A stretch of DNA of 40,011 nt from a virus: IMG/VR virus record IMGVR_UViG_3300025325_000066, positions 1 through 40,011 of that record, one strand, 5' to 3'. Position numbers and translations under genes: made by a program. Below the pieces are notes generated by a model. It did not search any database, was not told where the DNA came from, and saw only the letters and a program-made list of their open reading frames with translations. This document shows positions 3,633 to 26,257 of the stretch, in pieces (positions within the stretch are counted from its first letter, which is position 1; each line of letters opens with the position of its first letter).

Positions 3633-5546
3633 CTAACTCAGGATCAGGTGCTTGAAGGCTTCGGCCTGGCCGGGCATTCCACCTCGGCGGAACTTCGCCA
3701 AGAGCCCGATCTGCCCGTTGCCAGCATAGAGCTCATCCAGCCGTTGGATGATCAGGCCCATGCGCTCCACCACGAAGTAATAGCTGAAGTCGCCGATGAG
3801 GAGCGGCTTCAAGCCCGTGGTCATGGCGGGCATGGTTTCATCCGAGTAGAACGGCACGCCGTCGATTCGACGGGTGAACTGATCGCTTCCCCCGACCGCG
3901 CTTCCGGCCGGCGTTCCCTGGAACAGGAACGGATTGCCAGTCAGGGCGAAGATCGAGCCCTGAGTCGCCCGCTTGGAAACCAGCGCCACGGATGGGCTGG
4001 AGGCATACGGCGCCCCCAGCGAGTAGATCAGCGAGCTCACGTTCGCGGCGGTGATGGCATTAGTGCCCGCCGCGGTTACCCCCAGCCCCGATTCGATCAG
4101 AGCTGCCTTCGGCTGAGAGGTACCCGTGCCAACCGAGATGAAGTAGTAGTTTTCCCACTCGGCTTCGGCCCGGCTGAAAGCATTGGTCAAGAACGGCCCC
4201 AGATTGGCCTTCTCGTCGCCCAACAGTTCCTCGGAGATCTTCACCAGCTTGGTCGCCTTGTGAACCGTTGCCACGACTTGCCCGAAGGTCGGCTCGTCCT
4301 CGTTCACTGCCGCCTCTTCAGCCGTGATGGCAAACTTAGCCATCGAGGTGCCCTCGGTCGGGATCAATACCCGATCGAGTGAGGTCTGGATCACCGTCGC
4401 GCCCGCCCGCCGGATGACGCTCATGTCGTCCCGCTTGGCGACGACCTGATTGAAGAAATCATCCGGGACCAGGAAACCGCCTTCCCCGTCGGTTTGACCT
4501 TGCAGCGCAGCCTTGACTTCCGGGATGTCATCATTCATCGCCAGCTGGAGCTTCGCCGCTTCTGCGTAGACCTTCTGATACGGCTTGTTGTCGCGGGTGC
4601 GAAGCATGTGGAAGTACGCCTTCAGGCCACCCACATCGCTCCCGGTTTCAGCAACCCGCATCGTGTTGAAGCCACCCCTCCAGGCCGGGGTATCGGCTTC
4701 CCACTTCTTCTTTTCCTCAGCCAAGCGGGTCTGGAACTTGGCTTCCTCGGCGGCCTTCGCTTCCTGTTGGGCGCCGAGAATGGCGACCACTTTGGCAGCG
4801 ATGGCATCGGCATCGACCCCAGGGGTCTCTACCTTCAACTTCTCATCAGGCATTGTCTTTACCTCTTTCGTTTTGGGTTCTGTCTCGCCGCCGGTCTTCT
4901 TGCCTACGTTCGCCTCTTCGGCCTCATTGAACGTCTCTGGCAAAGTTAGCCCAGCCGCGTCAAACAGCGATTTGAGTTGCGTCACCCCGATGGTGCGTGG
5001 TTCAGCCGGTGTCGGGGTGAGCGAGTATTCCACCACCGGCCAGCGCAGGATTTTTCCACCGTTGCGTCGTGCAAGATGCGAGGCTGTGCCGCTCGAGAGC
5101 CCGATCACGCCCTCGCCAATCAACTGCAATACGGCATCGACATAGGCTTTGGAACGGTCCAGCTGCGCTTCGATCCAGACTCCCACTTCATCGGCTTCTT
5201 CGATCTTCACCGATCCAACCGCCCCGGTCACTTTCTCATTCAGCGTATGGTCATAGAACATAGCCTTGACTGGAACATAGGTCAGTTCCAACTCGGTCTC
5301 CACGGTGAAGGTATCCCCTTCGAGATCCTTGCCTCCGAAGACCACGCCATAGCCGGCGATGATGGCTTCGGTATCGGTGCTCGATTTGATCGTGACAGGT
5401 CCCGGTTTTCTCAAACTCTTACCCTCCCTCCACTTGCTCATGCAGATCGCTACGGCCTGATCCTGCTCATTCCCCTCGTCCACCATCATGGGAACGCATC
5501 GAGCCATGAATTCATCTTGTGACTCATTCTCTCCAGGCTCAGGCAC
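3633..5546 (-). CDS. Prohead protease - scaffold - major capsid fusion protein
   Basis: A single 637-residue ORF joining two normally separate head proteins. Residues about 45-190 are a U35-type prohead protease: His100 in FYDHTLNEK, Ser151/152 in GLSSGTASH and VVEYSLTPTPAEPR near 171-184. Residues about 205-300 are a charged, Ala/Glu/Lys-rich segment suited to a scaffold (delta) domain. From about 320 onwards is an HK97-fold capsid, with GGFLVPDDF and a LIGDFSYYFVVER segment near the C-terminus. The start is a GTG overlapping the upstream TAG. An internal ATG (4853) with AGAGGT upstream could yield a separate scaffold-capsid product. Self-cleavage of the fusion is expected. Confidence 0.9.
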   Translation of the reverse strand: MPEPGENESQDEFMARCVPMMVDEGNEQDQAVAICMSKWREGKSLRKPGPVTIKSSTDTEAIIAGYGVVFGGKDLEGDTFTVETELELTYVPVKAMFYDHTLNEKVTGAVGSVKIEEADEVGVWIEAQLDRSKAYVDAVLQLIGEGVIGLSSGTASHLARRNGGKILRWPVVEYSLTPTPAEPRTIGVTQLKSLFDAAGLTLPETFNEAEEANVGKKTGGETEPKTKEVKTMPDEKLKVETPGVDADAIAAKVVAILGAQQEAKAAEEAKFQTRLAEEKKKWEADTPAWRGGFNTMRVAETGSDVGGLKAYFHMLRTRDNKPYQKVYAEAAKLQLAMNDDIPEVKAALQGQTDGEGGFLVPDDFFNQVVAKRDDMSVIRRAGATVIQTSLDRVLIPTEGTSMAKFAITAEEAAVNEDEPTFGQVVATVHKATKLVKISEELLGDEKANLGPFLTNAFSRAEAEWENYYFISVGTGTSQPKAALIESGLGVTAAGTNAITAANVSSLIYSLGAPYASSPSVALVSKRATQGSIFALTGNPFLFQGTPAGSAVGGSDQFTRRIDGVPFYSDETMPAMTTGLKPLLIGDFSYYFVVERMGLIIQRLDELYAGNGQIGLLAKFRRGGMPGQAEAFKHLILS

Positions 5547-23795: not shown

Positions 23796-23803
23796 GCTAT
23801 GAT
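23796..23803 (+). promoter_or_regulatory. Extended -10 promoter (TGCTATGAT)
   Basis: TG followed by one base and TATGAT (23798-23803) gives an extended -10 element. No recognisable -35 lies 17 nt upstream. Initiation would be near 23810, directly before the hairpins of 23811-23890. The same TATGAT hexamer is used by the promoter at 24300-24328. Confidence 0.45.
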
Positions 23804-23810
23804 GCCTCTT

Positions 23811-23890
23811 GACCTTAGCCACACGAGGTCGGTACGTCCCGCCCCTGGCCCCTCGAAGTCGGAAGCTCCGAATAGGCTCGGGGCGGGTCG
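23811..23890 (+). ncRNA. Structured leader RNA before the 63-residue gene
   Basis: Three helices fit into 80 nt. GACCT (23811-23815) pairs with AGGTC (23826-23830). CG-T-CCCGCCCC (23835-23845) pairs with GGGGCGGG-T-CG (23880-23890) with one internal T/T mismatch. Within its loop TCGGA (23859-23863) pairs with TCCGA (23867-23871) around AGC. The large stem ends six bases before the ATG at 23897, where no ribosome site is evident. A cis-regulatory leader or a small RNA is likely; no known class is recognised. Confidence 0.55.
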
Positions 23891-23896
23891 CGTCTA

Positions 23897-24088
23897 ATGA
23901 TCGTCTGGGCCCGGTTGGAGTATGGACGGGTCTACCATGCCTGGGATCTCAAATGGCCTAATCAGCGATACGTGCGGTCCGTCTGCGGCAAATGGAGGAA
24001 AGCATGGCAACTCGGAGGCCACCCCATCGGAAGGAAATGCAAAGGATGCCGGCTCGAACTCCGGCGCCACCAGAAGCGCCCCTGGTAA
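23897..24088 (+). CDS. Small Trp/Arg-rich putative zinc protein
   Basis: A 63-residue protein (opening MIVWARLEYGRVYHAWDLKW) with SVCGKW near the middle and IGRKCKGCRLEL near the end, a spacing suggestive of a metal site. Small early proteins of the form H-A-W, then S-x-CG, then C-x-x-C-R are common in actinophage-like genomes, with unknown role. It begins directly after the strong stem 23835-23890 and lacks a ribosome site, so its translation may be controlled by that structure. Confidence 0.6.
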   Translation: MIVWARLEYGRVYHAWDLKWPNQRYVRSVCGKWRKAWQLGGHPIGRKCKGCRLELRRHQKRPW

Positions 24089-24299: not shown

Positions 24300-24328
24300 T
24301 TGACCCGAAAGGACTGTAGGCTTATGAT
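24300..24328 (+). promoter_or_regulatory. Consensus promoter TTGACC-N17-TATGAT
   Basis: TTGACC (24300-24305) and TATGAT (24323-24328) are separated by exactly 17 nt, a strong sigma-70-type match. It predicts a start near 24335, the exact 5' edge of the helix that opens the structured region 24334-24516. No protein start with a ribosome site follows for 350 bp. Confidence 0.75.
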
Positions 24329-24333
24329 ATGTC

Positions 24334-24516
24334 TGTGGACTTGGCAAAGTGCGCCGATGGCGCACCATACGACCGCTACCGAAGCGGTGGACTTGCGGAC
24401 CAAAAAGGACCGCCAAGTCCACACCGCAAGGCCCACCGCCCCGGAAGCGGTCGATGCTTTAATAGACACCGCTGACGGTGGCGACAACGCCGCCATCGCC
24501 CAGCGGCGTTTCGTTT
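24334..24516 (+). ncRNA. Candidate structured small RNA, about 180 nt
   Basis: Helices are read directly from the sequence. P1 is TGTGGACTTG (24334-24343) with CAAGTCCACA (24414-24423), 10 bp. Inside it lie P2 TGCGCC-GAT-GGCGCA (24350-24364), P3 ACCGCT-ACCGA-AGCGGT (24372-24388) and P4 GCGGaCC-AAAAA-GGaCCGC (24395-24413, one A/A mismatch), making a four-way junction. Downstream are ACCGC/GCGGT (24435-24451), CACCG-CTGA-CGGTG (24467-24480) and a terminator-like hairpin. A second GTGGACTTG (24387-24395) can compete for the 3' strand of P1. With its own promoter it looks like an independent RNA gene; I recognise no known family. A 125-codon frame crosses it but lacks a real start. Confidence 0.65.
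24486..24516 (+). terminator. Terminator-like hairpin ending the small RNA
   Basis: AACGCCGC (24486-24493) pairs perfectly with GCGGCGTT (24503-24510) around a 9-nt loop, followed by TTTCGTTT. An 8-bp GC-rich stem plus a T-rich run fits an intrinsic terminator, although the T-run is interrupted by CG. Confidence 0.6.
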
Positions 24517-24692
24517 CATACCAGGAAAGAGGGAGAACCGCACTCTCGGACAAGCGCGGAGGTTATCGGGCCTTACTCGGCGTCATGGATGAAACCCTGG
24601 CGCGGACTGACAGAAGAGGCCTTGCCGAGGCGCGTAGGCGCTGCAAAGAGTCCGCTGCAATTGCACTTTGTTCTTAGGGAGGAATCCGTTCA
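24517..24692 (+). other. Intergenic tail with 7-bp inverted repeat, no clear gene
   Basis: Between the small RNA and the gene at 24693 no convincing coding frame is seen. GCGGACT (24602-24608) and AGTCCGC (24649-24655) form a 7-bp perfect inverted repeat enclosing 40 nt. A second, weaker pair is CAAAG/CTTTG just before the next gene. The region could be a 5' leader for 24693-25541, whose GGAGG site ends it, or part of a longer RNA. Confidence 0.45.
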
Positions 24693-25541: not shown

Positions 25542-25887
25542 GGTGTATGTCACGCCGAGCCAACTGCCGCCCGAGGCCGAGCATTGGCAGCGCCAGGAAA
25601 AAGCGATCGGCCGCATCGTCTTCGCCAAAGCGATTGAGAAACAGAGTGCGCATTGCTTGAACTGCATGGATCTGGGCGAAGTCTATCTGACCGTGTGTAC
25701 TTCAGGTCCGTATGATGGCTGGCCGTCGGGTGCTAAAGCCACCTATTTTCCGGGCAGCGAACAACATGGCGAGGGCATCTACATCGTGCGGGAGACGCGG
25801 ACTTTCTTGTGCCCGGCTTGTCAAGGAAAACCTGGAGAGGAACTTGAAGTGGATCTTCCGGCCTCACCTCATTGGACCGAGTGGTGA
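25516..25887 (+). CDS. Zinc-ribbon early protein
   Basis: A 123-residue protein starting at TTG, preceded by GAGGAG, overlapping the preceding gene by 26 bp. Two Cys pairs (HCLNCMDLG near residue 48, and FLCPACQGKPG near 99) enclose a beta segment, giving a split zinc ribbon. The N-terminal helix (LPPEAEHWQRQEKAIG) is charged. DnaJ-like and TFIIS-like ribbons have comparable spacing; a role in nucleic acid binding is an inference. Confidence 0.65.
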   Translation: MSNIFHDPRVYVTPSQLPPEAEHWQRQEKAIGRIVFAKAIEKQSAHCLNCMDLGEVYLTVCTSGPYDGWPSGAKATYFPGSEQHGEGIYIVRETRTFLCPACQGKPGEELEVDLPASPHWTEW

Positions 25888-25897
25888 GCGAAGCCTC

Positions 25898-26257
25898 GTG
25901 GCTCTGACAGGTGAAGATAGTCACGTCTTAGGTCTAACCAATCCTGATCCAGTTGGAGAACTACTAGGAATAGGATACTTAAGATTTCAATCGCCGACCG
26001 GTATCGACGGCTTGGCGAAAGAGGACGGCGACCGTCTTGATCTGCTCGCATTTAACGCGCTGATCCCTGGTACCGGCCAGTTTCGGAGATTCATTCAGCG
26101 ATGCAAGCGGGAGTATGAAACGATCTGCATCTGGGAAGTCTGGAATCCGATGCTTCACGAAGTCCTGCAGCGATATGAGTTTCGAGCTTATTCGGAAATG
26201 GACCGAGACACAGGAGAGCCGCTTGAGGGGTATCGCTATGATGCCGGGCGCAAGTAA
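25898..26257 (+). CDS. GNAT-like fold protein, uncertain
   Basis: A 119-residue protein from a GTG at 25898; upstream codons of the same frame overlap the previous gene and look non-coding. The C-terminal half (RRFIQRCKREYETICIWEVW, then NPMLHEVLQRYEFR) has the pattern of phage N-acetyltransferase-like proteins: a helix, a V-W-x-V strand, NP-x-L and a final R-Y/G-F turn. The usual acetyl-CoA loop (Q/R-x-x-G-x-G/A) is not clear, so activity is doubtful. Confidence 0.5.
   Translation: MALTGEDSHVLGLTNPDPVGELLGIGYLRFQSPTGIDGLAKEDGDRLDLLAFNALIPGTGQFRRFIQRCKREYETICIWEVWNPMLHEVLQRYEFRAYSEMDRDTGEPLEGYRYDAGRK

Follow-up and report, generated by a model that had tools for sequence, protein, structure and literature searches.

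A covarying pseudoknot that may mask the start codon of predicted leaderless early mRNAs in uncultured phages

Mutually complementary segments within a phage leader RNA are familiar from the CI RNA of phage P4 and the C4 antisense RNA of phage P1, and put-like leaders, as in HK022, make polymerase resistant to termination. In translational pseudoknot riboswitches such as preQ1 (PMC9410914), a 5'-proximal pseudoknot overlaps the translation start site and masks the ribosome-binding site. The mRNAs of type I toxins (hok; aapA3, PMC6733600) shut their start site during and after transcription through alternative or metastable hairpins, masking the Shine-Dalgarno sequence by hairpins or by long-distance pairing, and have an antisense RNA as well. 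Leaderless mRNAs such as lambda cI carry the start codon at the 5' end, and ribosomes bind start codons that lie at or near that end (review PMC9031893). How leaderless translation is controlled is poorly understood.

Here we describe a structured element in the IMG/VR virus record IMGVR_UViG_3300025325_000066, the 40,011 bases of which are the whole stretch analysed (the window). By protein families the window is a tailed phage (terminase, portal, capsid and tail genes) that also codes for an Erf-like annealing protein, a DNA methyltransferase and a Holliday junction resolvase. Protein-guided and DNA-pattern scans revealed the element in eight other viral contigs, and five sequence types can be told apart among the copies: type W (the window, IMGVR_UViG_3300002407_000128 with an identical copy, L003 and a partial L004), type 2 (L015 = L014), type 3 (L016), type 4 (L022 = L023) and type 5 (L063). 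Within type W the element is 98–99% identical or better, whereas the genes around it show about 85% identity or no relationship; between types of equal length, pairwise gapless identity is 24–43%. A Blast of the element against phages and plasmids gave no match, exact-pattern and A4-protein scans of genome contigs gave no relative, and TTTAAY-context pattern scans returned the known contigs plus chance matches lacking the fold. The initial annotation had recognised no known RNA family, and indeed no Rfam 15 covariance model matched at gathering score in the window or in six related loci; sub-threshold matches were judged chance-like, among them one to COG2827 that we rejected (a GC hairpin, below gathering and missing in L003). 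The features of the element are collected in Table 1.

Table 1. Features of the element, in window coordinates
Feature	Position	Strand	Remarks
Sigma-70-type promoter TTGACC-17-TATGAT	24300..24328	+	predicted +1 at 24335
P1 5' strand	24334..24345	+	includes start codon
Putative leaderless ORF, 46 codons	24335..24475	+	GTG at predicted +1; TGA stop 24473-24475
P2 hairpin GTGCGCC-GAT-GGCGCAC	24349..24365	+	
P3 5' strand (long hairpin)	24370..24398	+	second GTGGACTTG at 24387-24395
Linker within P3 loop, ACCAAAAAGGACC	24399..24411	+	8-14 nt across the 5 types
P1 3' strand	24412..24423	+	in P3 loop, directly adjoins P3 3' strand
P3 3' strand	24424..24453	+	
Conserved motif TTTAAY	24458..24463	+	in-frame codons TTT AAT (Phe-Asn), ~4 nt past P3
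P5 GC-rich hairpin region	24468..24512	+	terminator-like, poor U-tract; overlaps and follows the stop codon

The promoter proposed in the initial annotation was borne out: with 10 of 12 matches it is the best promoter-like site within 23–26 kb. Its −35 box is likewise clear in L003 and L016 (TTGACA-17-TATCAT) and is weak in L015, L022 and L063. In all five types exactly 6 nt separate the −10 hexamer from an ATG or GTG, which places the predicted +1 on the opening base of the start codon. Simple base frequencies put the chance of an ATG or GTG at +1 at about 1/32 for each type, although the types are not fully independent.

The same annotation had stated that no coding gene fits this interval, which on this evidence is wrong, as a putative leaderless frame does fit and has comparative support from its start at +1, its in-frame lengths, its stop swaps and its domain fusions. 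The distance from the start codon to the in-frame TTT of TTTAAY is 123, 123, 123 and 105 nt in four types and 126 nt in L063 (where the motif reads TTTTGA), a multiple of three in every case. Every type keeps the frame open across the module, and the frame ends at the same codon, as CFNRH[RP]-stop, with TGA in the window, TAG in L003 and TAA in L015; in L016, L022 and L063 it runs on past that position. In L022 it leads into a protein whose sigma-70 region 4-like HTH begins at residue 38 and whose T5orf172 domain begins at residue 73; in L063 it leads into an O-like replication-initiator protein (HTH_36) whose domain matches begin at residue 66. The encoded peptides share little outside their last residues. 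Taken together, we consider it likely that the frame is translated. A separate candidate gene, the frame at 24324–24677 (117 aa), was rejected, since its start falls within the −10 box and L003 and L004 do not retain its downstream part.

These observations bear on the original proposal of a non-coding structured RNA, read as a stand-alone or trans-acting small RNA in which the open frame would be incidental. Its own promoter, a compact conserved fold with strong covariation and the lack of a known family all stand, and openness by itself says little, as frame +1 is also open through the module. Against such an RNA are the ATG or GTG at +1 everywhere, the multiple-of-three distances, the swaps among three stop codons and the domain fusions, as well as the lack of any conserved terminator or of a conserved sequence able to pair with a common target; the non-coding part of the proposal is probably wrong, and we regard the small RNA as improbable. 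A leader-peptide attenuator would accommodate the frame. Here a ribosome at the stop codon (24473–24475) would prevent P5 from forming and transcription would continue into the operon, with the P1/P3 fold setting how often the leader is translated. It suits this scheme that the frame in the window, L003 and L015 stops at one common codon, within or beside a GC-rich hairpin, whereas P5 lacks a good U-tract and the frame in L016, L022 and L063 passes the codon without stopping. The terminator-like stem that had been described here (24486–24510) was not listed by the terminator scan, which called no intrinsic terminator on the + strand near 24486–24516. We give the attenuator little credence on its own; it is partly compatible with a lock on the start codon (below) and could be added to it, because the stop codon touches P5.

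Genes downstream of the element vary between phages, while a small conserved gene (motif TDLRIK..GKPWRTVRAM) lies upstream of it, immediately so in L003, L015 and L016. The gene after the element is an unknown 282-aa protein in the window, an unknown ORF in L004, an HNH-like protein in L016, an HTH-T5orf172 protein in L022 and an O-like initiator in L063; in these five, the differing genes just after TTTAAC resemble an insertion hotspot.

Folding of the element in the window is much stronger than that of its shuffles, with z = −7.1 both for 24330–24520 (191 nt) and for 24334–24423 (90 nt). A 10-bp helix had been noted between 24334–24343 and 24414–24423; the helix, P1, is real and extends to 12 bp. 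It had been placed at the base of a four-way junction, but that fold is not conserved: the other types have weak local hairpins between the P1 strands or none, and the conserved partner of P1 is instead the long hairpin P3, the loop of which holds the P1 3' strand in every type. The predicted conserved fold is thus an H-type pseudoknot, in which the 5' end pairs with a long hairpin's loop. P1 has 11–13 bp in the five types (9 + 4 with a bulge in L015), and its 5' strand begins within 3 nt of the predicted +1 in each. P3 has 28–33 pairs where its foot is clear, and 0–1 nt separate the P1 3' strand from the P3 3' strand. The sole change of P2 in L003 converts a G-C to a G-U pair, and P2 is missing from L016, which is 18 nt shorter.

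Little sequence within the fold is conserved between types. The strands of P1 are GTGGACTTGGC/GCCAAGTCCAC, ATGGCTGCA-CACC/GGTG-T-TGCAGCCAT and GCCTGGGAAGC/GCTTCCCAGGC in the first three types and GTGGGCAAGAGA/TCTCTTGCCCAC and TGCTCTCAGGC/GCCTGAGAGCA in the remaining two; being unrelated between types and nonetheless always able to pair, they display covariation in its plainest form. The initial annotation had called for homologues with which its helices and its alternative pairing could be compared, and across the five types collected P1 and P3 covary, with the alternative pairing supported in L022 besides the window. Helices were checked in each sequence individually, per-column pair counting having been dropped because P3 of L016 is out of register by about 2 nt in the MAFFT alignment A5; few pairs are common in a gapless coordinate comparison because registers shift between types.

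A scan for the architecture a-b-a'-b' covered 271 kb of these phages. The elements gave P3 energies of −49 to −56 kcal/mol, while ten shuffles (2.7 Mb) gave one match below −45, with a P1 of 9 bp, and 217 kb of other viral contigs gave −43.2 at best, also with a P1 of 9 bp. The scan was designed after the first four types, and as the fifth (L063) was found by it, this is an independent success. By a rough energy sum (P3 state, P1 duplex and a pseudoknot penalty that we took to be 9.6 kcal/mol) the pseudoknot beats the best nested fold by 0.6–8 kcal/mol in the window, L003, L015, L016 and L022. Holding P1 together with a P3 of full length may be difficult: with a connecting strand as short as L1 (7 nt in L016), P1 would have to lie alongside P3, or the two may alternate.

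Two further explanations concern the fold itself. A DNA-level inverted repeat, such as a recombination site or an origin, might merely resemble RNA; the long near-palindromes, and sequences after TTTAAC that belong to different genes in each phage as at a mosaic junction, would fit, while the pseudoknot order of P1 and P3 and the exact register of P1 with +1 and the start codon are features of RNA, making such a repeat scarcely credible. The fold might also protect the 5' end from decay, or act as a put-like leader that makes polymerase resist termination. The position of P1 at the predicted 5' end in all types and of the element at the head of early genes that differ between phages agrees with either role. 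The exact start codon, the in-frame lengths and the stop swaps would be left unexplained, and an RNA that binds polymerase would be expected to conserve sequence; we therefore think these roles quite unlikely.

In all five types the ATG or GTG lies wholly or partly inside P1, paired to the P3 loop, and the predicted conserved helix thus includes the start site, as in pseudoknots that mask it. Retention of the fold through nearly complete sequence change suggests that the RNA probably acts as a lock on translation. The covariation of P1 and P3, their register with the promoter and the open frame together favour, as somewhat more likely than not, the reading that a leaderless early mRNA of the phage begins with a structured module in which P1 keeps the start codon in a duplex and so controls translation. 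Transcription would begin on the first base of the start codon, and the first 11–13 or so nucleotides would pair with the loop of the long hairpin made by codons ~12–40, the structured part spanning the first 35–42 codons of the frame across types. P1 would block ribosome loading on the 5'-terminal start codon, and initiation would be possible only on nascent RNA before the loop strand is made, after refolding, or where a factor opens P1. Since the start codon would be free during transcription until 24412–24423 is made, the module could work as a timer by which the message is translated while nascent and then locked. An initiating ribosome would unfold the module, which would afterwards re-lock. 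Expression of the leading gene in the early operon would in this way be limited or timed; that gene codes for a leader peptide of 46 residues in the window and for the fusions to HTH/T5orf172 or replication-initiator domains in other phages. Some bacteria use GTG poorly as a leaderless start (review PMC9031893), which counts against this reading, as do the openness of frame +1 and the scant sequence common to the encoded peptides.

The alternative hairpin of the window type would be one example of such refolding. The initial annotation had described two mutually exclusive pairings, and the second copy of GTGGACTTG (24387–24395) can indeed pair with the same strand in the window; this feature is conserved only in part. 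Its strength corresponds to a z of about −5 in the window type and −2.6 to −4.2 in L022, whereas it does not clearly exceed chance in L015 or L016 and is not evident in L063 (for L063, by energy only). In the window type, and probably in L022, the top of the P3 5' strand would trap the P1 3' strand locally and so would free the start codon. Self-complementary segments, with near-identity within types and strong divergence between them, would also suit RNA immunity or copy control of the P4 CI or C4 kind, in which the loop strand would act in trans on 5' ends of the same type and the sequence types would be specificity groups. A perfect second copy occurs only in the window type, however, no C4 match was found in Rfam, and no tyrosine integrase (PF00589, the one integrase family sought) was found in ten records, several of which are fragments. 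We judge this reading very unlikely.

Masking of the start codon, our preferred reading, gains support from the L015/L014 phage, in which a second, mirrored pseudoknot lies about 1.3 kb upstream of the element (L066 17093–17166, minus strand; the same place in L057). In the loop of its long hairpin, GAGACTCCTTCC forms a predicted 12-bp helix with GGAAGGAGTCTC, a Shine-Dalgarno sequence that immediately precedes an ATG, so that the loop holds an anti-Shine-Dalgarno. One phage would thus use a hairpin loop at two places to pair with a translation start site, the topology being reversed between them. The P3 energy of the mirrored pseudoknot (−43.8) is nearer to background than that of the main element, which makes it supporting rather than decisive.

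Other sites were noted in these phages. A second promoter-led structured leader (window 23798–23897, L003 2179–2291, L016 6167–6293) is identical over 68 nt between the window and L003 and 66% identical in L016; its outer stem covaries (CCCGCCCC/GGGGCGGG vs CATCCCCCG/CGGGGGATG), and it ends in GTCGCGTCTAATG, with no Shine-Dalgarno before the ATG of ORF 23897. The conserved stretch GAGCGAAGCSYCGTG..CTCYGAYAGGTGAAGATAGYCRCGYCTTAGG (window ~25880–25935, also in L003, L015 and L016) precedes a conserved 123-residue gene, and its 3' end resembles that of the 23.8-kb leader. In L003, at ~4280–4400, a tRNA-like stretch (TTCGTCTAGCGGCAGGACTCC ... GAGGGTTCGATTCCCTC) was not called by ARAGORN and is possibly a decayed tRNA gene.

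Set beside the known systems, the element resembles P4 CI and P1 C4 RNA in the mutually complementary segments of a phage leader, and differs in lacking a C4 match and a tyrosine integrase as detailed above. With type I toxin mRNAs such as hok and aapA3 (PMC6733600) it shares alternative hairpins bearing on the start site and compensatory variation within hairpins. Unlike those mRNAs, which mask the Shine-Dalgarno sequence and have an antisense RNA, it gave no toxin-like peptide, nor any minus-strand promoter-like site at 24300–24520. Like the preQ1-type riboswitches (PMC9410914), it has a 5'-proximal pseudoknot over the translation start site; it differs from them in that it would mask a leaderless, 5'-terminal start codon, with the fold inside the frame and without a conserved binding pocket, no riboswitch-type ligand-binding core being conserved across the five types, which have little common sequence. 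Its start codon, predicted to be 5'-terminal, would match that of leaderless mRNAs such as lambda cI, and it differs from them in the strong conserved structure that pairs this codon, a lock of a kind not described in the searched text of the review (PMC9031893) or elsewhere in the literature searched. If translation is controlled as proposed, the module would be a compact example of leaderless control with natural compensatory variants. It also indicates that a fold which overlaps an open reading frame can persist although hardly any of its sequence is conserved, so that sequence search alone would miss the element across types. We suggest, tentatively and with slightly less than even confidence, that these pseudoknots form a new class of regulatory RNA in phages, one that evolves fast and uses the loop of a long hairpin within the coding sequence to mask a leaderless start, with a mirrored counterpart masking a Shine-Dalgarno sequence and a head joined in frame to interchangeable early genes. 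The element is new to Rfam; masking of a start site by a pseudoknot is a known kind of action, and its application to a leaderless start appears to be new within the literature searched.
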